From: an uncultured Prevotella sp.
GTDB lineage: Bacteria > Bacteroidota > Bacteroidia > Bacteroidales > Bacteroidaceae
Assembly: GCA_900315775.1 (NCBI GenBank)
Contig: ONAJ01000001.1
Coordinates: 58,945 to 122,944 of the forward strand
Direction: 5' to 3'
DNA: 64,000 nucleotides
Shown here: one piece after another, positions 12,935-63,291 of the stretch
Layout of the letters: every line of letters begins with the position of its first letter
Position numbering within the stretch: position 1 is the first letter of the stretch
Program-made: the position numbers and the translations under genes
The notes under the pieces: model-generated
Told to the model about the DNA's origin: nothing
The model's database searches: none
What the model saw: the letters and a program-made list of their open reading frames with translations, nothing else

Positions 12935-12958
12935 AGTAATTTACGATTTGACTATTTA

Positions 12959-13558
12959 CTATTTATTCTGCAGGTTCTTAAGACCCTCTTTCAGCATAGC
13001 ATCGACACCATTTGAGGTCAGTGTGGCACCTGTAACGCAGTCAACCTGCGACTCGGGGTTCTCCACCTTCTTAACGACAGAGAGCACTACACTACCCTGC
13101 TCGTCCCAAATCTTCTTGCCGATGAACTTTTCCTGCCACTCGCGAGAGTCCTTGATTTCAGCACCAAGACCTGCTGTCTCACCTTCGTGGTTGAAGTAAG
13201 CGCCATATACCTTGTCGCCGTCAACAGCGATGTAGCCGCTGATGCCGCCCCAGAGTCCCATACCTTTAAGGTTTACGACGAGAATATCCTTGCCGTCAAT
13301 AGAACAGCAGTATATGTTCTTACCATCCTCTGTCTTCTCGCTTTTTACCACTTCATTATACTTTGCTTCAGCCTCTGCACCGTCAAGGTCGCGGATGTTG
13401 AGCGAATAAAGTATCTGTTTCTTAGTGTCGAGTTCCACGTTCTTGTCCTGCATAGGCTTCAGCGCCTGATAGACGAATGCCAACAAGAAGGCAACAACGA
13501 CAACGAGTATCGCACTATATATAATAATGTACGAATTATTATTTGTGTTCATTTTCAT
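12959..13558 (-). CDS. nqrC: Na+-NQR subunit C (covalent FMN)
   Basis: Flavoprotein subunit with one N-terminal membrane helix (about residues 10-30) and a periplasmic FMN domain. The flavinylation motif TGATLTSNG contains Thr179, the expected attachment site for FMN, which ApbE transfers. At 199 residues it is shorter than the 230-260 I would expect, yet the helix, the domain and the motif are all present. Its ATG overlaps the nqrB stop (ATGA). A second ATG two codons later is an alternative start. Confidence 0.95.
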   Translation of the reverse strand: MKMNTNNNSYIIIYSAILVVVVAFLLAFVYQALKPMQDKNVELDTKKQILYSLNIRDLDGAEAEAKYNEVVKSEKTEDGKNIYCCSIDGKDILVVNLKGMGLWGGISGYIAVDGDKVYGAYFNHEGETAGLGAEIKDSREWQEKFIGKKIWDEQGSVVLSVVKKVENPESQVDCVTGATLTSNGVDAMLKEGLKNLQNK

Positions 13559-23225: not shown

Positions 23226-26200
23226 ACCTTACAGTATATAAAGCAAGTGCAGGAAGTGGAAAGACTTTTACGTTGGCAACAGAATACATAAAGTTGCTGA
23301 TTGAGAATCCACTTGCATACAGAAATATTCTCGCCGTAACATTTACCAACAAGGCTACGGAAGAAATGAAACAACGAATACTGTGGCAACTCTACGGAAT
23401 AAGCAAACAGCTACCATCGTCGGAAAGTTACATAAAAAATGTATGCGAAAGTCTTGATATAAGTAGAGAAAAGGCAAGCAAACAAGCAGCACGTGCTCTG
23501 CATGAACTGGTACACAACTATAGCTATTTTAGAGTCGGAACAATTGACGCATTCTTCCAGAATGTACTGAGAAACCTCGCAAGAGAACTGGACCTTACCG
23601 CTAATCTGAGGGTAGAACTGAACGACAAGCAGATAATGGAACAGGCTGTCGATGAGATGACGGCAGAACTTAAACCCGAGGATAAAGTGCTGAAATGGAT
23701 TATCAGCTACATAACGGAAAATATTCAGGACGACAAATCGTGGAACGTCTTCGGACAGATAAAGAACTTCGGAAAAACAATCTTTGAAGATACTTACAAG
23801 GAGGAAAGTGAGATTCTTAACCAAAAACTTGGTGAGAAAGGTTTCTTTGAAAGATATACAAACGACATAAGGACTATCCGACAAGAGGCTGAGGAAAGAA
23901 TGGGAATGTATGCGAAGTCATTCTTCGACATCCTGGAGCAGAATAGTTTAACAGCCGAAGACCTTTCTGGCAAGAATAAAGGAATTGTAAGCTATTTTAG
24001 AAAACTTCAAAGCGGTAAGTTCAGTGATAAAGACTGTTGGAATAAAACATTAGAAAAGCACTTGGACGATGCTGAGGCATGGGTTGCAAAAACGCATCCG
24101 GACAGATATGACATATTAGGAATTGTTGAGGCACAACTGATGCCGCTGCTTAAAAATGCTGAAAATGAAAGAGGTAAACAATGGATGCTGATGGAATCAG
24201 CAAATAAAACACTTCAGCATCTTAACAAGTTACGACTACTTGCATATATAGAAAATAAGGTGCGTAGCATGAACGAGGACGCAAACAGATTTTTGCTTAG
24301 CGATACGCAGAAACTGTTACACGACCTTATTGACGATAGCGATAGCCCCTTTATTTTCGAGAAAATAGGTACACAACTGGAACACATCATGATTGATGAA
24401 TTCCAGGATACAAGTGTTATACAGTGGAACAACTTCAAAGTCTTGCTTATGGAGATCATGAGTCATAAAAACTCAAGAAACCTTATCGTTGGCGACGTGA
24501 AACAGAGTATATATCGCTGGCGTAATGGAGACTGGAGACTCCTTAATGACATAGAACAGAATTTTGACCCGGGAATTGTAAAGGTACGTTCGTTACATAC
24601 TAACTACAGAAGTGAGAAAAACATCATAGACTTCAACAACTGGTTCTTCAAGAAAGCATCAGAGATAGAATATGCCAATGAGATGAACATTAATCCTGAG
24701 GAGGCAGAACAGTTGAAGAGAGCTTATTATGACGTTGAACAGGAGGTGCCAAATGAAAAGAAGGGAAACGGATATGTCAAGATAGAACTACTGTCGGGCG
24801 AGGACTATGATGAAAACATGATGAAGTCCACGGAAACGGCTGTCACAAGACTACTGCAGGCGGGAGTACAACAGAAAGATATTGCCATTCTGCTCAGAGC
24901 GAATAAGAATATTCCTGTTATTGCTGATTACTTTATGCGAAACCACCCAGAGCTTAAACTTGTAAGCGATGAGGCTTTCCGACTTGATTCTTCGTTGGCG
25001 GTAAATATTATTATCGCTGTTCTAAAGCTGGTTTATTCGCATAATGACTTGCTGACACGCACCTTCGTTGAAAAGGTATGCGGAAAAGTGGACATCGATG
25101 TAAATTCATATAAAACGCTGCCATTAAAGGAAATGGTAGAGAAAATATGCCAGGACTTCAATATCGCAGATATGAAGGAACAAAGCGCTTATGTCAGCAC
25201 TTTCTTCGATCAACTAACGAAATTCATTGACGACTTTGGCTCTAATCTGCACCTGTTCTTAAGAGAATGGTATGAACATATCTGTAAGAAAACTATTCAA
25301 AGTGACGAAACGGATGGTATAAGACTACTGTCTATCCATAAATCAAAAGGACTGGAATTTCATAGCGTCATAATTCCATACTGTGATTGGAAACTTGAAC
25401 TCTCAAACACCTTGTGGTGCAAGCCAAAGGAGGCTCCTTTCAATGAATTGCCTGTGGTACCGGTGGACTATAGCAGCAAGCTGATGGAGACAATATACAG
25501 CGAGGACTATAAACGAGAACATCTACAAAATTGCGTAGATAATCTTAATCTACTATATGTGGCATTTACCAGGGCTTGTAAGAACCTTTTTGTCATAGGA
25601 AAATCAAACTCTTCGGGCACAAGAAGCACAATCATTGAGCAAGTAATAGGTGACGTTGAATACGAAGTTGGCAATGACGTTTGTGCATATAATAATAAAG
25701 AGGAAGAAAAGAATGTAATGCTGATACCCACAAGAATTGATTCCTTCAATGTACCCGCTGAATTCAGACAAAGTAATAAAAGTAGAGATTTCATCGTTGG
25801 AGAAAACGAGGATGAGAAAAATATGTATATTAAACTGGGTACTGTGTTACACAATATATTTTCAAATATACGAACTCTTGACGACATTCCCAAGGTAATA
25901 CAAGAAATGGAATTCGAAGGAATACTATATAACGACGACATAAGTGTTGAACACCTGAGAAAAATGCTTAGCAAACGACTGGAAACAACGCAGGTAAAGG
26001 AGTGGTTTAGTCCGAAGTGGCGACTCTTCAACGAATGTGCTATCCTTTCTGTTAATGCCGACGGAGAGGTCATAGAACGACGTCCGGATAGGGTTATGAC
26101 TGATGGAGAGAAGACAATTGTCGTTGATTTTAAATTCGGAAAGCCTCATGAAGAATATCATAATCAAATAAAGTCGTATATGCAGCTGTTAAGAGATATG

Positions 26201-42371: not shown

Positions 42372-42387
42372 TTCATTTCTGTGTTAG

Positions 42388-42459
42388 AAAAAAAAATTGA
42401 TTGTCTCACGACAACCAATCTTTAGTTAACCTTAATAATCTAATACCATGAAAAACACG
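42388..42459 (-). ncRNA. Candidate small RNA, about 72 nt
   Basis: On the - strand a full promoter (42463-42494) is followed about 40 nt downstream of the predicted start by a 9-bp hairpin (UUGGUUGUC, loop GUGA, GACAAUCAA) and nine U residues. One pair of the stem is G-U in the - strand RNA but A-C in the + strand, so the structure favours transcription on -. The hairpin spans 42397-42418 and the U-tract 42396-42388. The stretch before it (GGTATTAG...AAGGTTAAC) carries no useful ORF on this strand. The conclusion is inferred from promoter plus terminator only. Confidence 0.5.
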
Positions 42460-54803: not shown

Positions 54804-55616
54804 ATGAAATTAAACCTTACAAAGCCCCTTGTTGTCTTCGATTTGGAGACAACGGGGCTTGACCTTGTTAATGACAGGGTCATTCAGATATCTTATATTA
54901 AAGTTTTTCCTGACGGTAAGGAAGAACGCGAGAACTTGTTTGTTAATCCCGAGAAGCCAATCCCTGCTGAGGTTGAGGAACTGACACATATCACTAACGA
55001 TATGGTAAAGGACCAGCCGACGTTCAAACAGCTGGCTGCCAAGTTAAACGAGAAGTTTACTGGCTGCGACTTTGCTGGATACAACTCCAACAACTTCGAT
55101 ATCCCTATGCTTGCGGAGGAGTTCCTTCGTGCCGGCATAGACTTCGACTTCTCACGCTGTCGTCTTATCGACGCTATGACAATCTTCAAGAAGATGGAGC
55201 GTCGCAACCTTGCTGCCGCGTATAAGTTCTATTGTGGCAGAAAGATGGAAGAAGACTTCCAGGCGCACCGTGCTGACCAGGATACAGAGGCAACACTTCG
55301 TGTCCTTATGGGAGAGCTCGATATGTACGCTCCTGGCAAGCAGGAAGAGCCGGAACGTCAGCTCAACAACGACATGAACGAGTTGGCTGAGTTCTCAAAG
55401 ACTAACGACAATGTAGATTTTGCCGGACGCATCATCATGAAGGACGGCAAGGAGACATTCAACTTCGGCAAGTACAAAGGATGGGCTGTTGCTGACGTGC
55501 TCCATCGCGACCCGGGTTACTACAGTTGGATGCTCTCAAGCGACTTTACATATAATACAAAACAAGTATTGACGAGAATACGTCTTCGCGAGTTTAACAA
55601 CAAGAATCATGCTTAA
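54804..55616 (+). CDS. DnaQ-like 3'-5' exonuclease
   Basis: 270-residue DEDDh exonuclease. The acidic and His residues are visible: VVFDLETTG (Asp, Glu), NSNNFDIPML (Asp) and AHRADQDTEATLRVL (His, Asp). A C-terminal extension (about 205-265, FNFGKYKGWAVADVL...SWML) resembles the DUF3820 module found behind such exonucleases. It may be the Pol III epsilon proofreading subunit or a related nuclease; its place after dnaN supports a replication role. It overlaps coaBC by 8 bp. Confidence 0.9.
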   Translation: MKLNLTKPLVVFDLETTGLDLVNDRVIQISYIKVFPDGKEERENLFVNPEKPIPAEVEELTHITNDMVKDQPTFKQLAAKLNEKFTGCDFAGYNSNNFDIPMLAEEFLRAGIDFDFSRCRLIDAMTIFKKMERRNLAAAYKFYCGRKMEEDFQAHRADQDTEATLRVLMGELDMYAPGKQEEPERQLNNDMNELAEFSKTNDNVDFAGRIIMKDGKETFNFGKYKGWAVADVLHRDPGYYSWMLSSDFTYNTKQVLTRIRLREFNNKNHA

Positions 55617-56832
55617 AGGTAAACACATAGTACTGGGCATTACGGGAAGCATTGCTGCTTACAAGTCTTGTCTTATCATCCGCGAACTGATAAAGAAGGG
55701 TGCTGAGGTTCAGGTGGTCATAACACCTGCGGGCAAGGAGTTCATCACACCGATAACACTCTCTGCCCTAACCCACAAACCCGTTGTTAGCGAGTTCTTC
55801 TCACAGCGTGACGGCACGTGGAACTCCCACGTTGACCTCGGACTGTGGGCCGACGCTATGCTTATAGCACCAGCGACAGCAAGTACCATAGGAAAGATGG
55901 CTCACGGCGTTGCTGACAATATGCTCATTACTACATACCTTTCAATGAAAGCACCCGTATTCGTTGCTCCCGCAATGGATCTCGATATGTATGCTCACCC
56001 GTCAACACAGAACAATCTCGACATTCTGCGTTCCTACGGCAACATAATTATTGAGCCGCAGAGCGGTTTCCTCGCAAGCGGATTAGAGGGAAAAGGACGA
56101 ATGGAAGAGCCGACAGTAATCGTAGAGAAACTCGAAGAAGCCCTCTCTAATCACTCCTCTCTCCTCTCTTCTCACTCCTCTCTCCTCTCTCCTCTCTCCT
56201 CTAAAATTTTAATCACCGCCGGTCCTACCTACGAGAAAATAGACCCCGTCCGTTTCATAGGCAACTACTCAAGTGGCAAGATGGGCTTCGCCCTCGCTGA
56301 GGAGTGTGCGCGTCGCGGCATGCAGGTAACGCTCATTGCGGGTCCTGTAAGTCTTGAGTGTTCTTCGTCTATAAAACGCATTGATGTGGAGAGCTGCGAG
56401 GAGATGTACAATGCCGCCATTGAGGAATTCCACAACGTCGATGCCGCCATACTCTGTGCTGCTGTTGCCGACTATCGTCCGGCAGAAGTGGCCGACACCA
56501 AGATAAAGCGTCACGACGACGAGGACCTTACTCTCCGTCTGCTCCCCAACAAGGACATCGCGGCAGAGTTAGGACGTCGCAAGCAGCAGAACCAGAGACT
56601 CATCGGCTTTGCTCTCGAGACTAACGACGAAGAGATAAATGCGCAGAAGAAACTCGCTAAGAAGAACTTCGACTTCATTGTCCTCAACTCCACGAGGAAC
56701 GAAGGCACCACCTTCCGTTCTGACGACAACCAGATAAGTATTATCTCTGACAACGGGAAGAAGGACTTCGCAAAGAAGCCGAAGTCGGAAGTAGCACGCG
56801 ATATTATTGACGAATTAGAACGTATTCTATGA
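55609..56832 (+). CDS. coaBC: Phosphopantothenoylcysteine decarboxylase/synthetase
   Basis: 407-residue bifunctional coenzyme A enzyme. The N-terminal flavoprotein decarboxylase (CoaC, about 1-180) shows ITGSIAAYK and the active-site His in NSHVDLG. The PxMNxxMW-type motif reads PAMDLDMY, and the substrate flap reads LASGLEGKGRM, with Ser in place of the usual Cys. The C-terminal synthetase (CoaB, about 202-407) starts ILITAGPTYEKIDPVRFI and has the AAVADYRP and KIKR motifs. The linker between them (about 180-201) is a low-complexity SSLLS repeat made by a 7-bp tandem array at 56154-56202. Confidence 0.95.
   Translation: MLKGKHIVLGITGSIAAYKSCLIIRELIKKGAEVQVVITPAGKEFITPITLSALTHKPVVSEFFSQRDGTWNSHVDLGLWADAMLIAPATASTIGKMAHGVADNMLITTYLSMKAPVFVAPAMDLDMYAHPSTQNNLDILRSYGNIIIEPQSGFLASGLEGKGRMEEPTVIVEKLEEALSNHSSLLSSHSSLLSPLSSKILITAGPTYEKIDPVRFIGNYSSGKMGFALAEECARRGMQVTLIAGPVSLECSSSIKRIDVESCEEMYNAAIEEFHNVDAAILCAAVADYRPAEVADTKIKRHDDEDLTLRLLPNKDIAAELGRRKQQNQRLIGFALETNDEEINAQKKLAKKNFDFIVLNSTRNEGTTFRSDDNQISIISDNGKKDFAKKPKSEVARDIIDELERIL
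56154..56202 (+). repeat. 7-bp tandem array in the coaBC linker
   Basis: Seven exact consecutive heptamers: six CTCCTCT and one CTTCTCA (56168-56174). A degenerate unit CTAATCA (56147-56153) precedes them. Read in frame the array gives a 7-residue peptide period (SSLLS...). It lies exactly between the two enzyme domains. Confidence 0.9.
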
Positions 56833-57740
56833 AACGATATTTAGCTATATTACTAATCATAATTCTCAATTCACAATTCTCAATTATAAATTCACAGGAG
56901 CTCCAGGCTACTGTGAACATCAACCATCAGCAGATACAGGGTACCGACGTGTCTGTCTTTGAGAATCTCAAGCAGACGCTCGAGCAGTTTATCAACGATA
57001 AACAGTGGACTTCACTGCAGTTCCAGAAGAACGAGCGCATAGTATGTAGCTTTAATATTACAGTCACCAAATACGACAAGAGCAATAACATCTTCACCTG
57101 TACGGCGCTGATTCAAGCTTCGCGCCCTATCTACAATGCGGCATACAGCACCACAATATATAATAATAAGGATGCCAACTTCGACTTCGAGTTTGCGCAG
57201 TTCGACCAGCTTAACTTCAACGAGGAAGAGATAGACAACCAGCTCACGGCACTTCTGGGCTACTATGCCTACCTTATTATAGGCCTTGACCTCGAGACCT
57301 TCTCGCCTATGGGTGGCGAAGACATCCTTCAGCGCTGTATGAATCTTGTCAACAACGCCCAGTCACTACAGTTCGTGGGTTGGAAAGCCTTTGAGGATTC
57401 ACGTAACCGCTTCGCCATAATCAACGACTATCTCGACGGAGCGCTGGCACCCTTCCGTCAGCTGCAGTACGACTACTACCGTCTCGGACTCGACGAGATG
57501 GCGAACAATGCTGACCGAGGACGCACAAACATCACTACGGCTCTTGAGGAGAACCTTAAGAAGGCGCACGAGAATCGTCCGCTCAGTCTGTTGCCGCAGA
57601 TATGGCTCGACTACAAGAAAGACGAGATTGCTAATATATATAAAGGTAAAGGAACACAGAAGGAGAAGGAGTCGGTTTACGACATAGTGTTCAACATCAA
57701 TGCTTCACAGAACAGCACTTGGGAAAAGATTAAAGAATGA
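56829..57740 (+). CDS. porD: Type IX secretion protein PorD (DUF4835)
   Basis: 303-residue periplasmic or outer-membrane-associated protein of the DUF4835/PorD family, an assembly factor of the type IX secretion system. Family segments include the YLIIGLDLETFSPMGGEDIL and LLPQIWLDYKKDEI regions. A signal peptide is present, but its C-terminal half (ILNSQFSIINSQ) is encoded by a 7-bp tandem array at 56862-56896. It overlaps coaBC and recN by four bases each; the order coaBC-porD-recN is common in Bacteroidota. Confidence 0.9.
   Translation: MKRYLAILLIIILNSQFSIINSQELQATVNINHQQIQGTDVSVFENLKQTLEQFINDKQWTSLQFQKNERIVCSFNITVTKYDKSNNIFTCTALIQASRPIYNAAYSTTIYNNKDANFDFEFAQFDQLNFNEEEIDNQLTALLGYYAYLIIGLDLETFSPMGGEDILQRCMNLVNNAQSLQFVGWKAFEDSRNRFAIINDYLDGALAPFRQLQYDYYRLGLDEMANNADRGRTNITTALEENLKKAHENRPLSLLPQIWLDYKKDEIANIYKGKGTQKEKESVYDIVFNINASQNSTWEKIKE
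56862..56896 (+). repeat. 7-bp tandem array in the porD signal peptide
   Basis: Five consecutive heptamers: ATTCTCA, ATTCACA, ATTCTCA, ATTATAA, ATTCACA. They encode ILNSQFSIINSQ in the porD frame. Confidence 0.88.
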
Positions 57741-59413
57741 TAACACAACTGACGATAAAGAATTACGCCCTTATCGACTCCCTCGATATGGAGTTTCATA
57801 AGGGCTTCTCTGTAATAACTGGTGAAACGGGAGCCGGAAAGAGCATCATCCTCGGTGCTATAGCTCTGCTACTCGGACAGCGTGCTGACTCCAAGACGGT
57901 AAAGAGCGGCGAGTCGCGATGCATCATCGAGGCACACTTCGACCTCAGTCGCTACAACATGGAGGACTTCTTTACCGAGAACGACATAGACTACGACACA
58001 TCAGACACCATACTCCGCAGAGAACTGACTTCGGCAGGAAAGAGTCGTGCTTTTATCAACGACACTCCCGTCGGACTTTCCGTTATGCGCCAGCTCGGAC
58101 AACAACTTGTTGACATTCATTCACAACACCAGAACCTGCTCCTGCAGGAGGAGGACTTCCAACTTAATGTTGTCGATGTTATAGCCAACAACCACGAACT
58201 ACTGCAACAATACAAAGCAAAGTATAACGAGCTTCACGCTGCCGAGAGAGAACTTGAGTCGCTGAAGCAGGCACTCCAGAAGGCGTCAAACGATGAGGAC
58301 TTCCTTCGTTTCCAGCTTCAGGAACTTCAGGATGCCAACCTCGAGGAAGGCATGCAGGAGGAACTGGAACAGGAAGCCGAGATGCTCTCGCACGCAGAGG
58401 AGATAAAGTCGGCACTCTACGAGGCAGACACCCTCCTTACGGGTAGCGAACAGTGTATCGTGGACCAGCTGAAGAACGCCCTTCGTCCGCTGTCACGCAT
58501 CACCGACGTATATCCTAAGATAGCAGAAGCCGTAGAGCGACTCGAGAGTGCCCACGTAGAGATAAAGGACATAGCACAGGAGATTGGCAGCGCTGCTTCG
58601 CAGGTAGATTACGACCCGCAGCGTCTTGAGATTGTCAACTCCTCGCTCGACACCATTTATTCGCTGCAGAAGAAACACCACGTAGAAAGCGTGGACGAAC
58701 TGATAGCTCTGCGCGACAATATGGAGAAGCAGCTGCAGCAGATAGAAAACAGCGACGAAGCGTTAGCAGAACAGGAGCAGACGGTGAAACGTCTTCTCGA
58801 CGAAGCGCTTCAACTTGCCAACAAGCTCTCTGCAACCAGAAAGAAGGCTGCTGCCAACATCGAGAAAGAGATGCGTGAGCGCCTTGTTCCGTTAGGAATG
58901 CCTAACGTGCAGTTTAAGGTCTCGCTGAGCCAGCCTCACCAGGCACAACTAACGTCAACGGGAATGGATGCTGTGGAGTATCTCTTTACCGCAAACACAG
59001 GAACGCCCCTGCAGCCCGTTAGTCAGATAGCCTCGGGAGGTGAGATAGCGCGAGTCATGCTGGCGCTGAAGGCTATGATAAGCGGAACAGTAAAGCTGCC
59101 CACAATAATCTTCGACGAGATAGATACGGGAGTCAGCGGAAAGATAGCCGAGAAGATGGGACACATCATGCGCGAGATGGGACAACAGGAGCGCCAGGTT
59201 ATCAGCATTACTCACCTACCCCAGATAGCTTCTCTCGGCAGCACTCACTACAAAGTATATAAGGAAGATACGCCCGAAGGCGCCAAGACCTTCATGCGTC
59301 TGTTGTCGAAAGACGAGCGTATCAACGAGATAGCACAGATGCTCAGCGGTAGCGACATCACCGAAGCAGCTATCAACAATGCGAAAGACCTAATGAATAA
59401 AGCCAACCCCTAA
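57737..59413 (+). CDS. recN: DNA repair protein RecN
   Basis: SMC-like ATPase of 558 residues for double-strand-break repair. Walker A GETGAGKS is at 29-36, a long coiled-coil middle covers about 155-365, and the C-terminal half has the signature IASGGEIARVMLALK and Walker B PTIIFDEIDTGVSG, then SITHLPQIAS. Last gene of the dnaN operon; its TAA lies in the loop of the terminator. Confidence 0.97.
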   Translation: MITQLTIKNYALIDSLDMEFHKGFSVITGETGAGKSIILGAIALLLGQRADSKTVKSGESRCIIEAHFDLSRYNMEDFFTENDIDYDTSDTILRRELTSAGKSRAFINDTPVGLSVMRQLGQQLVDIHSQHQNLLLQEEDFQLNVVDVIANNHELLQQYKAKYNELHAAERELESLKQALQKASNDEDFLRFQLQELQDANLEEGMQEELEQEAEMLSHAEEIKSALYEADTLLTGSEQCIVDQLKNALRPLSRITDVYPKIAEAVERLESAHVEIKDIAQEIGSAASQVDYDPQRLEIVNSSLDTIYSLQKKHHVESVDELIALRDNMEKQLQQIENSDEALAEQEQTVKRLLDEALQLANKLSATRKKAAANIEKEMRERLVPLGMPNVQFKVSLSQPHQAQLTSTGMDAVEYLFTANTGTPLQPVSQIASGGEIARVMLALKAMISGTVKLPTIIFDEIDTGVSGKIAEKMGHIMREMGQQERQVISITHLPQIASLGSTHYKVYKEDTPEGAKTFMRLLSKDERINEIAQMLSGSDITEAAINNAKDLMNKANP

Positions 59414-59427
59414 GGATTGGCTTTATT
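59396..59427. terminator. Terminator with recN stop codon in its loop
   Basis: 11-bp stem (AATAAAGCCAA with TTGGCTTTATT) and a 10-nt loop containing the recN TAA (59411-59413). A T-rich tail follows on +. The convergent gene ends at 59454, so the hairpin may act for both strands. Confidence 0.85.
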
Positions 59428-59453
59428 TATTTTAAGTCTTGGTCAATCGTTAC

Positions 59454-62400
59454 TTACTTAACCAGCACCTTCTTACCGTTTACAATTACAATTCCCTTGT
59501 AGTCCTTGCCTACGCGCTGACCAGCGAGGTTATAGTAATCATAATTCTTCATTCTCAATTCCGAATTCTCAATTGAACGGATTCCGTCAGTAACAGCCTT
59601 AACAGTCATCTTCATGTCCTTAGTTACAGTAACAGTATATTGACCTGCAGGAAGCTTAACAGTACCGTCAACCTTTGTCAAAGCATATTCAGCATTGATT
59701 TCAGGAACAATGTTGCCAGCCTCAAGTGCCCAACGGTGAGAACCGTTCAGCTCATCCCAGTTTGCGCAGTCGTTCTTGTCAGCAAATGCGAAGTAGTGCT
59801 CGCTTTCTGGAGAATTAACCTCGTAAGTCCAAGCCTGTATTGTCTCGTCGAATGGCAGCTCTGCATTGTTAGCATAGGCCCAATCTTGGTTACCACCAAG
59901 GAGATACAGATGCTCAACTGTTGGAGCTACAGTACGCTCAGTCTTCAGGAGAGTAACGAATGTTGCTGTGTTACCATTGCGTCCGAGATAGAGCTTGTCA
60001 TAGTCAGCCTCAAGAGTGAATTTCTCCACTGCAGGATCATTAGCTGAAACTCTACCATTTACAAACTGCTGTGTTGTGAAGAGAACAACAGGGGCGGCAG
60101 TTCCATCAAGTGTGAAGATATCAACAGCCGACTTCTTTGTTTCGTCAGAGTTGTTGAATGCACCAGCAATAGAAATAACGTCACCAGCCTTGAAGCCACC
60201 GTCAATTTCAATTGTAGCGTAGTTACTGTTCAGAGCACCTTCTGTTGTGTATCCGTTAGCGAACTTAATACCTTTAACTTCATCAGTATTAGTGTGAATC
60301 TTAACAGCCGCGTCCATCTCTGTAGTACCACCAATAGTAATACCTGCAGCAGTTGTTGGATAGTCAATGTATGCTGGAAGAGTTGGAGTAACCTCACCAG
60401 TAACAGTCATCTTCAAGTCCTTAGTAACAGAAATCTTATATGAGCCGGCACCAAGCTGAACATTACCCTCGAATACTGAAACAAGCTGGTATTCTGCATT
60501 GATTTCAGGAGCGATGTTACTCTCGCCGATAGCAAAGCGATGACCTGCTTTGAATGAATCCCAGTCACCATTTGTAAACTGCTGGTCAGCAAAAGAGAAG
60601 TTTACAACATCTGTAGAAGCATAGTCATACTCGAAAGCCTGAGTCTCTTCATTCCAAGTCATCTCAACCATTGCATCCAATTTCCAGTCATTGAGGTCAC
60701 CAATAAGGTAAAGCTTCTCAACTGTTGGAGTTGCAGCCTTTGCAGTTACAACAACATTCTTGATTTCCCAAGTACCACCTTTGTTAGCCTCAGTATTTGA
60801 ATAACGGAAAGCAATTCTAATCTTTGCGTTATTGTAAGCAGAAAGGTCAATATCGCCAGACTCTACCCAGTTGAAGTTCTCATTTGTAACGTGATTTGGA
60901 ATAGCTACAGGAGTCCATTGTGCACCATCTTCTTCAAGCTTAACGAACAGCTGAGCCTCCTCAGCTACAGTACCGAAGTATCTTCCAGCATGAGAGAATG
61001 TCAGAACTGCATCCTGCTTATTTGTCAAATCAATAACAGAAGAAACTAAATCGAATGAACCAACAACTTCTTTATTGTATGCAGTACCATAAGCGCAGTT
61101 ATACTGACTATTGTAACTCCAAACGTTAGGAGCCTCTGTTGCGAAGCCGTCAAGACCTTTAGCCATAGGAGCATAGAATACTGTTCCTTCTGGAGCAAGC
61201 TCACCAGAAATAGTAACCTTCATGTCCTTAACGCTGATAGTATAAATACCTGCAACAAGCATGATAGTACCATCACCCTTTGTAAGTTCAAACTCTGTGT
61301 CGAGTGTTGGAGCACCGTCAATGTTTGCTATGTAGTAGCGGTGGTTTGTATTGAAGTCTGTCCAATATGGATCAGCAGCAGCCTCTTCTGCAGTCTGCTG
61401 GTAGTCAGCAATTGCAAAATAAGACAATGGCTTTGTAGCAACATACTGATATGTGTAAGTTTGTGTATCAGCGTTGTAAGCCATCTCGTCCATTGCTGTG
61501 GGGTCCCAAGGAGTTGTTGTACCGTCACCGATAACATAGAGCTTTGGCTGCTCTGGAGCAACTTCACCTTCCCACTCTATTTCTACTGAAGCAAGATAGA
61601 GAGCATTGGCTTGTGATCTGATACCGACGTACTCATAATCATCAGTAACTTCAAGTGTGGAAACAAGCTCTGTTGCATCATCTATATTCAATTCAGCTAA
61701 CATAGTTCCTTGGTTAGTTCCATAAAGGTCTGTCGGAGCTTCGTAAGCAGTGTTGCTGCCATAAATTTGAACTTTACGTCCTGCAGCTGTATTATCTGCC
61801 CAATTAAGAACAACCTTCTTCAGTTTACCACCGGAAGTCGTAGAAACTATACCTGAATTACTATTAGATGAACGTAATTGTATTGCCGCTGTATTACCCG
61901 CAGACATATTTGCAGCATATATAGCATTCGATGTGAAGGTCTTACCTGTAAAGTTAGCATAAGAATTGCCTCCTGTTGCAGTAGCACCAAGACCAACAGA
62001 TGTCAGCACGTCGGTAACTGTGCCTACTGGAGTTGGTGGAGGTGTAGGAGTTTCAGCACGAGTGATTGTCAGCTCAAGGATACAAGTTCCTGTATTACCG
62101 GAACGACCTATGAATAACTTCTCAGCATCAGCTGTCAGTGTAAATGTCTGAGCTGTGGGCTCTACAGATGTGTCATTAGTGTTAAGGAAGTTATCTGTTG
62201 TCCACAAATTTGTCTTATTTTGGTCGTAGAAAGCAATAGCAGCATTCTTTTCAGATGCATTGTTATAGCAACCAGTAATGGAGATAACATCACCTGACTT
62301 GAAGCCACCTTCAACGGAGAGTTCAGCATAGTATTTCTCGTTGTCATCCATTTTGATTGACTTGCCGAACTTAATACAGTCCGTACTAACATTCTTTACT

Positions 62401-62582
62401 TTCACAGTAGAATAAGACACGTCAGTTGTCTCAGTTGTTCCTTCGCCTTCTGTGGCAGGCTTTAAGGAAACCAACGTAATTCCATCCTTTGTTGTAGGAT
62501 AGTCAATTAATTTCGTCGTTTCCTGCGCATTCACCACTATGGAGAACAGCGCAAGGGTTAGAAATGTGAATAATTTTTTCAT
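59454..62582 (-). CDS. Large modular secreted protein with C-terminal sorting-like tail
   Basis: 1042-residue exported protein (signal peptide MKKLFTFLTLALFSIVVNAQ). Internal repeats: an A module (about 24-178 and 732-891; IDYPTT...ITL start, GGFKxGDVISI core, LFIGRSGNTGT-type end), and a C module of about 108 residues (348-462, 624-731, 892-997; start LYLIGDxxDW, AEYxL middle, end KDMKMTV). A cleaved-adhesin or jelly-roll-like domain lies at about 466-623. The C modules resemble the SusE/SusF-type Ig/carbohydrate-binding folds, so glycan binding is possible but unproven. The last 25 residues (YYNLAGQRV...NGKKVLVK) match the short C-terminal tail common on Prevotella secreted proteins, probably for type IX export. 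Confidence 0.85.
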   Translation of the reverse strand: MKKLFTFLTLALFSIVVNAQETTKLIDYPTTKDGITLVSLKPATEGEGTTETTDVSYSTVKVKNVSTDCIKFGKSIKMDDNEKYYAELSVEGGFKSGDVISITGCYNNASEKNAAIAFYDQNKTNLWTTDNFLNTNDTSVEPTAQTFTLTADAEKLFIGRSGNTGTCILELTITRAETPTPPPTPVGTVTDVLTSVGLGATATGGNSYANFTGKTFTSNAIYAANMSAGNTAAIQLRSSNSNSGIVSTTSGGKLKKVVLNWADNTAAGRKVQIYGSNTAYEAPTDLYGTNQGTMLAELNIDDATELVSTLEVTDDYEYVGIRSQANALYLASVEIEWEGEVAPEQPKLYVIGDGTTTPWDPTAMDEMAYNADTQTYTYQYVATKPLSYFAIADYQQTAEEAAADPYWTDFNTNHRYYIANIDGAPTLDTEFELTKGDGTIMLVAGIYTISVKDMKVTISGELAPEGTVFYAPMAKGLDGFATEAPNVWSYNSQYNCAYGTAYNKEVVGSFDLVSSVIDLTNKQDAVLTFSHAGRYFGTVAEEAQLFVKLEEDGAQWTPVAIPNHVTNENFNWVESGDIDLSAYNNAKIRIAFRYSNTEANKGGTWEIKNVVVTAKAATPTVEKLYLIGDLNDWKLDAMVEMTWNEETQAFEYDYASTDVVNFSFADQQFTNGDWDSFKAGHRFAIGESNIAPEINAEYQLVSVFEGNVQLGAGSYKISVTKDLKMTVTGEVTPTLPAYIDYPTTAAGITIGGTTEMDAAVKIHTNTDEVKGIKFANGYTTEGALNSNYATIEIDGGFKAGDVISIAGAFNNSDETKKSAVDIFTLDGTAAPVVLFTTQQFVNGRVSANDPAVEKFTLEADYDKLYLGRNGNTATFVTLLKTERTVAPTVEHLYLLGGNQDWAYANNAELPFDETIQAWTYEVNSPESEHYFAFADKNDCANWDELNGSHRWALEAGNIVPEINAEYALTKVDGTVKLPAGQYTVTVTKDMKMTVKAVTDGIRSIENSELRMKNYDYYNLAGQRVGKDYKGIVIVNGKKVLVK
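59544..59571. repeat. 7-bp tandem array before the C-terminal tail
   Basis: Four consecutive heptamers on the + strand: ATTCTTC, ATTCTCA, ATTCCGA, ATTCTCA. On the - coding strand they encode the linker IENSELRMKN between the last repeat module and the C-terminal tail. Confidence 0.82.
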
Positions 62583-62621
62583 ATTAGATTTGATTTAGTT
62601 AATAAAAATAGGTTTACTTTG

Positions 62622-62653
62622 CAAAGATAAATATTACTAATTAAAGTTCCAAA
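62622..62653 (-). promoter_or_regulatory. Promoter of the large secreted protein gene
   Basis: On the - strand: TTTG at 62653-62650, a 20-bp spacer and TATCTTTG at 62629-62622. Full consensus; leader of about 36 nt. Confidence 0.72.
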
Positions 62654-62767
62654 CAATTTAAGATTTATTTTACAATAAATCAAAGTTCGCGCACACGCAC
62701 ACGAAAGATGGTTTTTAGGATTTCTCAATTTTTATTTTTCAAAAAAAAGTGTCATCCGTCATGCTGC

Positions 62768-62868
62768 AAACCATAGGTTTTCCCCGACCAAAGCATAGGT
62801 TTTCCCCGACCAAACCATAGGTTTTCTCCGACCAAACCATAGGTTTTCTCCGACCAAACCATAGGTTT
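62768..62868. repeat. Five 13-bp palindromes at exact 22-bp spacing
   Basis: AAACCATAGGTTT at 62768-62780, 62812-62824, 62834-62846 and 62856-62868, and one single-mismatch copy (AAAGCATAGGTTT) at 62790-62802. Each repeat unit is 22 bp, two helical turns, so the five sites face the same side of DNA. Spacer text is TCCCCGACC or TCTCCGACC. Confidence 0.92.
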
Positions 62869-62915
62869 ACTTTGGACAAGCATACACGTCAATTTACTTT
62901 GGATAAGCATACGCG
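62866..62915. repeat. Pair of 23-bp direct repeats
   Basis: Copies at 62866-62888 and 62893-62915, 27 bp apart, beginning TTTACTTTGGA and ending AAGCATAC(A/G)CG, with two differences. They continue the palindrome array inside the inverted-repeat element. Confidence 0.8.
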
Positions 62916-63050
62916 CTGCCAATCCAAATGTAAAGATTTTTTAATGACGGCTGACACTTTTTTTCGAAAATTAAAATTTCCATAATCCTAAAAAAGGTAT
63001 GTTTTAAACCTTTGTTTTCCTGCGTGGTGTCAGGCGCTTAATACATTTCT

Positions 63051-63078
63051 CTAACCACTAACCTCTAACCACTAAAAA
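63051..63078. repeat. 7-bp tandem array, intergenic
   Basis: Four consecutive heptamers: CTAACCA, CTAACCT, CTAACCA, CTAAAAA. They run directly into the hairpin at 63076-63103. Confidence 0.82.
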
Positions 63079-63103
63079 GCCTCGACCGAGTGGCCGGGGC
63101 TTT
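63076..63103. terminator. Hairpin, probable terminator
   Basis: 9-bp stem (AAAGCCTCG with CGGGGCTTT, one T-G pair) around a 10-nt loop. In the - direction it is followed by TTTTTAG, so it could end the Bro-type transcript. A larger inverted repeat (63129-63157, GACATAGCTCAAGC with GCTTAGCTCTGTC) and a second CGGGGCTTTT (63168-63177) lie between it and that gene. Confidence 0.5.
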
Positions 63104-63291
63104 GACTTCGTCTAACCCCCTCACGCTCGACATAGCTCAAGCAAGCTTAGCTCTGTCCTCGCTTAATCGGGGCTTTTAATTTAAATTATTTGTCGTCATA
63201 ATGTCCATATATTTGATTTTTATGTCATTTATGACATTGAAATCGAATACAAGATGTGACGAGGGACAGGTCAACTGATACATCTTCATCT

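Follow-up and report, generated by a model that had tools for sequence, protein, structure and literature searches.

A 64,000-nucleotide (nt) stretch of an uncultured Prevotella sp. (contig ONAJ01000001.1 of assembly GCA_900315775.1), in the following called the window, carries tandem arrays of imperfect 7-bp units, some of them inside protein-coding genes, and this raises the question of whether each array has grown where it stands or is a copy of an element that spreads. An earlier, sequence-only reading had described four arrays in 7-bp register, namely in coaBC, in a porD-like gene, in the gene of a large secreted-type protein and between genes. All four were recovered by Tandem Repeats Finder (TRF), which was used to call arrays in the window, three of them clearly and the one in the secreted-type protein (59543-59574) weakly (72% matches). 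The arrays are specific for a 7-bp period, their units recur within the genome, some families share an end sequence, both orientations occur and coding sequence tolerates them. On balance, we lean towards copying and insertion at new sites, followed by 7-bp slippage, as a better explanation than independent slippage at each site, if not a conclusive one.

The rumen-type genome that holds the window (2.34 Mb, 98% complete, 40 contigs) was sampled on 17 contigs in 20 stretches, each of 20 kb, which together with the window make 464 kb; all sampled contigs had earlier pattern matches, so that array density is possibly biased upward. With a strict array defined as a run spanning 28 positions at a self-match of 85% or more, the 400 kb contained 34 runs of period 7, an excess over the 5-, 6- and 8-bp arrays (0, 1 and 4) with which the sequence-only reading had proposed to compare them, and likewise over periods 4, 9, 10, 11, 12 and 13 (0, 1, 0, 1, 1 and 0). 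Further strict runs fell on multiples of seven, with period 14 giving 12 and period 21 giving 5. Over the 464 kb, with short periods filtered, strict arrays number 35 at period 7, while the remaining periods between 4 and 12 have 0-4 each, and a looser scan gave 65 period-7 arrays, which extrapolates to about 330 per genome. Within the window, a scan of 21 nt at 76% self-match found three arrays of period 7, one each of periods 8 and 9, two of period 12 and none of periods 4, 5, 6, 10 and 11. Loss of mismatch repair was rejected as a cause, as MutS_I was found in this genome; it is also present in 12 of 13 others searched, the miss being G216, which is 68% complete. An artefact of metagenome-assembled genomes is unlikely, since Prevotella sp. 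P2-180 (L158), whose record is not titled as such, has a 75-bp array, and since the reading frames are open.

The alternative that survives best is independent local slippage, in which each array would have grown in place from a chance heptamer doublet and gene-breaking arrays would have been removed by selection. Its premise is that 7-nt loops escape mismatch repair and that some heptamers slip easily; we regard it as possible but rather unlikely. By majority unit, GGAGAGA accounts for 14 of the 65 arrays, AATTGAG and TTAGNGG-type units for 10 each, AATTATG for 8 and GGTGCGA for 4. An identical unit is shared by 9.0% of array pairs in the window's genome (9.4% of pairs from the same 20-kb locus; 6.4% in G216 and 3.2% in G169), compared with 1.1% of pairs from different genomes and 1.15% of pairs among 30 isolated heptamer doublets of the window's genome, the last figure arguing against growth from such doublets. 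Removal of arrays with similar flanks leaves 61 of the 65 arrays and a sharing of 9.1%. Unit number speaks against slippage as well. The 34 GGAGAGA arrays compared for it have two (1), three (5), four (11), five (11), six (2), seven (3) or eight (1) units, a peak at 4-5 and not at 2-3, and the variant-unit order GGAGAGA-GGAGTGA-GGAGAGA-GGAGAGA is found at 7 of the 34 sites. On the side of slippage are the 14- and 21-bp higher-order patterns visible by eye within arrays, and the lack of G on one strand of the unit, which could favour slipping, in 113 of 138 arrays (a set of 147 sites, enriched for the families searched for, less those with identical outer flanks). Moreover, one loose unit profile, rotating and strand-free, is common to the genomes (TC(A/T)N(A/C)(A/C)(C/T) over 219 arrays with 92 distinct units; fit 65.3 vs 44.8 +/- 2.5 for letter-shuffled units, 20 shuffles, maximum 50.4), and among 80 named relative loci strict arrays of period 8 occur in 13 (period 7 in 24, period 6 in 1). 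A possible native seed in TrpE, described below, would also suit slippage.

The array ends add a further argument. In the set of 138, GAGA followed by A/T letters stands at the right end of 16 of 34 GGAGAGA, 15 of 29 TTAGNGG and 4 of 12 GGTGCGA arrays. The left end has it in 0, 0 and 1 of them, and 12-nt windows drawn at random match in 0.6% of cases. A larger neighbouring module is common to some array copies; once similar right flanks are removed, 12/27, 6/15 and 2/9 remain. In the TTAGNGG family this motif lies outside the unit (6 of 15 right ends vs 0 of 15 opposite ends after strict removal of similar flanks), which counts against slippage. In addition, 12 of 31 AATTGAG sites continue into ATTATGATTA within 28 nt.

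At the orthologous sites compared (CoaBC, DHFR and TrpE) the arrays are lineage-specific. Full conservation in orthologues, which the sequence-only reading had named as an outcome that would tell against it, is not what we found. For CoaBC, 139 loci yielded 106 distinct linkers (10 loci yielded none), of which 7 have period 7 at a threshold of 16/21, against one with period 6, two with period 8 and none with other periods. The units differ: TCTCTCC in the window, GAGAGGA on the other strand in the close relatives L083 and L084, CAACGCT in L123, a GACCCTC-like unit in L126, GAAGATG in L082 and CATCCAG in L141. Another loop of CoaBC was extracted 75 times and shows period 7 twice, a number that contributes little. 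The DHFR comparison covers 30 loci, the window's genome and the 29 best of 113 genomes with a match. Here, the loop is short in 27, while three have 11-12 additional residues at the same place: the DHFR of the window's genome with a GGAGAGA array, L343 with a CTCAGCC array in the opposite sense and L317 with irregular sequence. In TrpE, where the 30 loci comprise our own and the 29 best of 75 genomes with a match, DIEVRGARYEVRGAK stands in place of the native ELDEGADPI-type loop of 29/29 relatives, a net gain of 7 residues or 21 nt; the relative L447 has a different array at another place in TrpE. Runs in the TrpE scan fall on period 7 (2), period 9 (6) and period 6 (1), with none at the remaining periods from 4 to 12. 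At both the DHFR and the TrpE array, native sequence is partly replaced and not merely added to. For the M3 peptidase, alignment of the array region with the best solved relative leaves two gaps of 4 and 14 residues.

In the explanation that we propose, each array is one copy of a very short dispersed element, mostly of about 30-60 bp, that belongs to a genome-specific family. The body of the element would consist of 3-5 imperfect tandem heptamers, and the element would be copied to new genome sites in either orientation. Arrays would be pasted in ready-made, and ectopic copying, by microhomology-type template switching or by insertion of short single strands while DNA is replicated or repaired, is a more likely route than a dedicated transposase. 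Slippage in 7-bp steps may afterwards gain or lose units, which would also drift in sequence, and coding copies would survive where the sense strand is free of stops, the frame is kept and the site is a loop, a linker or a signal peptide. Ectopic copying is favoured because a target duplication is not clear, because native sequence is partly replaced, because two patterns are rare in viral contigs, and because the 98%-complete genome gave no match to the reverse transcriptase model RVT_1 at E 0.01 (3 of 14 known genomes matched as control; divergent reverse transcriptases may escape the model). In the 2.9 million viral contigs, the number of stretches with an exact match was 40 for (AATTGAG)3 and 7 for (GGAGAGA)3; with both patterns tried so rare, phage-borne arrays were rejected. 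The sequence-only reading had offered a spreading or a slippage-born element tolerated in linkers. Unit recurrence, shared ends and absence from most orthologues support the former, while the slippage-born option fits less well, the possible TrpE seed notwithstanding.

Several observations weigh against spreading by copies. Allowing one mismatch raises unit sharing to 12.5% within the window's genome, 7.5% between genomes and 3.7% among doublets, so that the contrast shrinks, and the end motif of GGAGAGA arrays is partly built in, as the unit supplies GAGA and random sequence after the unit gives an 18% chance match; these two points moderate our confidence. The right-end motif is also rare or absent in AATTGAG (1/16), AATTATG (0/9) and other units (1/38), and two of the seven sites with identical unit order belong to homologous cassettes. 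Near-flank similarity within a family exceeds permutation on both sides of TTAGNGG and on the right side of TTGAG and TTATG arrays, though not for GGAGAGA and GGTGCG, and the identity of left and right flanks (3.54 vs 3.34 +/- 0.09 shuffled at 138 sites; z ~2.2) gives a weak signal of target-site duplication. At the site of the GGTGCGA array, TrpE relatives have GAGGGTGCCGA-like native sequence, the possible local seed mentioned above. The ArgRS array shows no net insertion relative to the best solved relative, so coding arrays are not always added segments. Finally, the best whole-query DNA match has 70% identity and gives no clean empty site from a close genome, and no mobilising gene was identified.

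A bolder extension, which we consider clearly unlikely, would place the arrays in a class of minimal mobile DNA found throughout the order Bacteroidales. Its members would have a heptamer body that varies and short constant ends but no fixed sequence, and a dedicated mechanism working in 7-nt steps would spread them, each lineage reinventing its units and rewriting surface loops of essential enzymes. It is improbable that the arrays are solo arms of a palindromic element (array-palindrome-array) of the miniature inverted-repeat transposable element (MITE) type, mobilised by an insertion sequence (IS) transposase. Some intergenic copies do consist of an array, a AGTACTAAGCGCTTAGTACT-like palindrome and an inverted array, and TTAG-like left ends are found in 20 of 29 TTAGNGG and 12 of 34 GGAGAGA arrays, partly as an inherent feature of the TTAGNGG unit. 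However, the capped palindromic core occurs at only 6 places in the 464 kb vs 65 arrays, the arms on the two sides of a palindrome are often from different unit families, and a target duplication is not clear. As for the hallmarks of MITE and IS elements, the right-end motif of the GGAGAGA and TTAGNGG families is absent at the left end, and the flank signal is the weak one given above. The palindromic composite, tried as a general explanation, accounts for some intergenic copies only. Very improbable is a dedicated enzyme such as a reverse transcriptase of the telomerase-like kind known from DRT10 defence, which would add templated 7-nt repeats that are later integrated: the strict 7-nt step, a constant end beside a variable unit number, strand-asymmetric repeats and DRT10 as a precedent for bacterial tandem-repeat synthesis (PMC12632851) speak for it, but the window's genome is without an RVT_1 match at E 0.01 and the many units per genome would require many templates.

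Some intergenic copies are joined in mosaics with two hairpins, one terminator-like and one GC-rich, and with a AGTACTAAGCGCTTAGTACT-like palindrome flanked by inverted arrays, and paralogous cassettes with similar genes have differing mosaics. A multi-copy cassette at L052 7860-8310, with paralogues among L239-L249, encodes a small peptide (MKKDTWKTIIQVVISVLTAALTALGTTSC...) preceded by arrays, palindromes and hairpins in a mosaic that varies; we take this peptide to resemble the 'smalltalk' proteins.

Repeats of heptamers are known from other bacteria. The STRR repeats of cyanobacteria are heptamers, and the hmw genes of Haemophilus contain phase-variable 7-bp tandem repeats that are able to slip, at few loci and with a regulatory effect. 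From the latter, the Prevotella arrays differ by their many degenerate sites with no evident switch. The resemblance to STRR repeats pointed out by the sequence-only reading is fair, and tandem heptamers stand at many dispersed sites (35 strict and 65 looser arrays in 464 kb). That reading knew of no account of such repeats from Bacteroidota, which does not hold as put, since TAACTGA heptamer repeats occur in Beggiatoaceae, Cyanobacteria and five Bacteroidetes (MacGregor, 2015; PMC4679880). STRR and TAACTGA repeats share with our arrays tandem heptamers at many sites per genome and a patchy distribution across lineages. In addition, different heptamers are mixed in some genomes with TAACTGA repeats, and indels between strains come in 7-nt steps (PMC4679880). 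The 65 arrays have 22 majority units, and TAACTGA, the sole published STRR-type unit compared, is not one of them; the Prevotella units differ from it, are largely genome-specific and have an end motif in some unit families. TAACTGA repeats within reading frames are mostly found at protein ends (PMC4679880), whereas genes contain 22 of the 65 Prevotella arrays, and several of these occupy internal loops of conserved enzymes. We found no heptamer arrays in Prevotella described in the open-licence literature.

For the coding copies, a close likeness is with the Rickettsia palindromic elements, which are dispersed short repeats tolerated in frame within conserved protein-coding genes and also found between genes (PMC2229807). 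In-frame insertion in conserved genes is likewise seen for the Prevotella arrays (DHFR, TrpE, CoaBC). The Rickettsia elements are palindromes of 105-146 bp forming a stem-loop (PMC2229807), in contrast to about 30-60 bp of direct heptamers with many alternative units; the array bodies in Prevotella are short direct repeats, with palindromes in few composites only. The GGGAATC and GGGGA(C/T)T heptamers of Xanthomonas and Nostoc resemble our arrays as multi-locus families with variable unit number and over-represented period 7, but they have one quadruplex-type unit per lineage (PMC4692102), whereas the Prevotella arrays have many units, most of them without G runs, and in-frame coding copies. 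The Prevotella arrays work like known heptamer repeats and Rickettsia elements combined and fit neither definition in full: their units are unlike both TAACTGA and the heptamers of quadruplex type, and they do not form a palindromic element. If spreading holds, the arrays would supply core-enzyme loops with new peptide segments by a route distinct from point mutation, ordinary indels and domain shuffling, and one open to test, as related species have different insertions in the same proteins. It would also sharpen the question of what makes the heptamer, of all lengths, the unit that bacteria from several phyla amplify. Array-rich Bacteroidales genomes with genome-specific units offer a comparative set for finding the copying agent.

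Genes were called with a home-made gene finder (coding fraction 0.888), which placed 22 of the 65 arrays in predicted genes, one of them in a frame cut by the end of its stretch, and 43 outside. The four window arrays had been described as lying on the + strand in the pyrimidine-rich sense, which holds for these four and not for the genome sample, where the sense strand of the 22 in-gene arrays is C-rich in 12 and G-rich in 10. Of the 23 arrays whose unit has stops on both strands, none lies in a gene, vs 22 of the 42 others, a contrast that is partly true by construction, because an open frame stops at an array of this kind. G169 has four arrays with such units, two of which were called within genes. 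Hosts recognised by Pfam include DHFR, ArgRS, TrpE, a PurL-type protein (GATase_5 and AIRS_C), an M3 peptidase, an ABC-F-like ATPase, CoaBC, a GT87 protein, an MFS protein and a TonB-dependent protein. A glycosyltransferase region in L042 (14483-17622) holds six heptamer arrays with five majority units in about 3 kb; a single gene, whose match to glycosyltransferase family 11 stays below the cut-off, contains two of these arrays.

In the window, coaBC (55609..56832, + strand), encoding phosphopantothenoylcysteine decarboxylase / phosphopantothenate-cysteine ligase, has the Pfam domains Flavoprotein (residues 5-178) and DFP (residues 198-379). Its array at 56142..56207 (+ strand; unit CCTCTCT, on the other strand GGAGAGA; TRF 56142-56202, 8.7 copies, score 87) encodes SNHSSLLSSHSSLLSPLSSK and, by the Pfam boundaries, lies in the linker that joins the CoaC domain to the CoaB domain. 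Residues 182-195 have a predicted local distance difference test (pLDDT) score below 50 in an AlphaFold model of moderate quality (mean pLDDT 74), which weakly supports a flexible array-bearing linker. The porD-like gene (DUF4835; 56829..57740, + strand; PF16119, residues 23-301, E 3.4e-108) carries an array of unit AATTCTC at 56852..56896 (+ strand; TRF 56857-56896, 5.7 copies, score 38), which corresponds to residues 10-22 in the signal-peptide region (IIILNSQFSIINSQ), N-terminal of the DUF4835 domain. The large secreted-type protein is a 1042-residue open reading frame at 59454..62582 on the - strand, in which a Pfam search gave no family at E 0.001. Its weak AATTCTC-family array at 59539..59574 (no strand assigned; TRF 59543-59574, 4.6 copies, score 36) sits immediately ahead of the C-terminal NYDYYNLAGQRV segment, and the sense strand of the gene is the G-rich strand at this array. 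This is one of 52 sites listed (hand count) in a search of the genome with the AATTCTC-unit pattern.

The intergenic array at 63046..63080 (no strand assigned; TRF 63051-63075, 3.6 copies, score 43) has the unit CTAACCN, on the other strand TTAGNGG, terminates in CTAAAAA and belongs to the TTAGNGG family with its 29 sites in the reduced set. Adjoining it at 63028..63047, a motif search located an end motif that reads GAGAAATGTATTAAGCGCC on the other strand; it has 7 matches at 6 places in the 464-kb sample, beside TTAGNGG and CTCGTAC/GAGATAC-type arrays. A terminator-like inverted repeat read by eye abuts the array at 63075..63104, and similar stretches are found elsewhere in the genome; neither feature has an assigned strand. 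A little upstream of the intergenic array, a 22-bp direct repeat (CAAACCATAGGTTTTCCCCGAC) occupies 62767-62868 with 4.6 copies and 96% match, and its core has no second place among the loci scanned from the same genome.

Among relatives, the phenomenon is patchy, and some genomes also produce 8-mers. Of the 80 named genomes that rank best by CoaBC, most belong to Prevotella or to other Prevotellaceae, and many come from ruminants. Over 100 relative loci (these 80 and 20 further stretches; 1.86 Mb), strict arrays number 40 at period 7, 16 at period 8, 7 at period 9, 6 at period 12 and 0-3 at each other period from 4 to 11. G169 and G216, chosen for high first-look counts, have 8 strict period-7 arrays in 180 kb and 20 in 142 kb, with other units prominent. 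Degenerate 8-bp arrays occur in L124, L127, L132, L143, L145 and others, so the period is not always seven. At the level of the order, 52 of 393 genomes matched an AATTGAG search, in which the control pattern AGTTAAG is not clean, being itself a heptamer unit abundant in some genomes. Loose arrays in sampled stretches number 3 in 25 kb of G541, 2 in 94 kb of G763 and 5 in 60 kb of G759. AGTTAAG x3 has 287 matches in G541 and 176 in G763, possibly concentrated in few long arrays.

Two more period-7 rows of TRF in the window, at 12939-12965 (score 38) and 24526-24540 (score 30), are both short. The sole gathering-level Rfam match of the window, at 42387-42458, is BTncRNA_FopS, a Bacteroidetes family of paralogous small RNAs.

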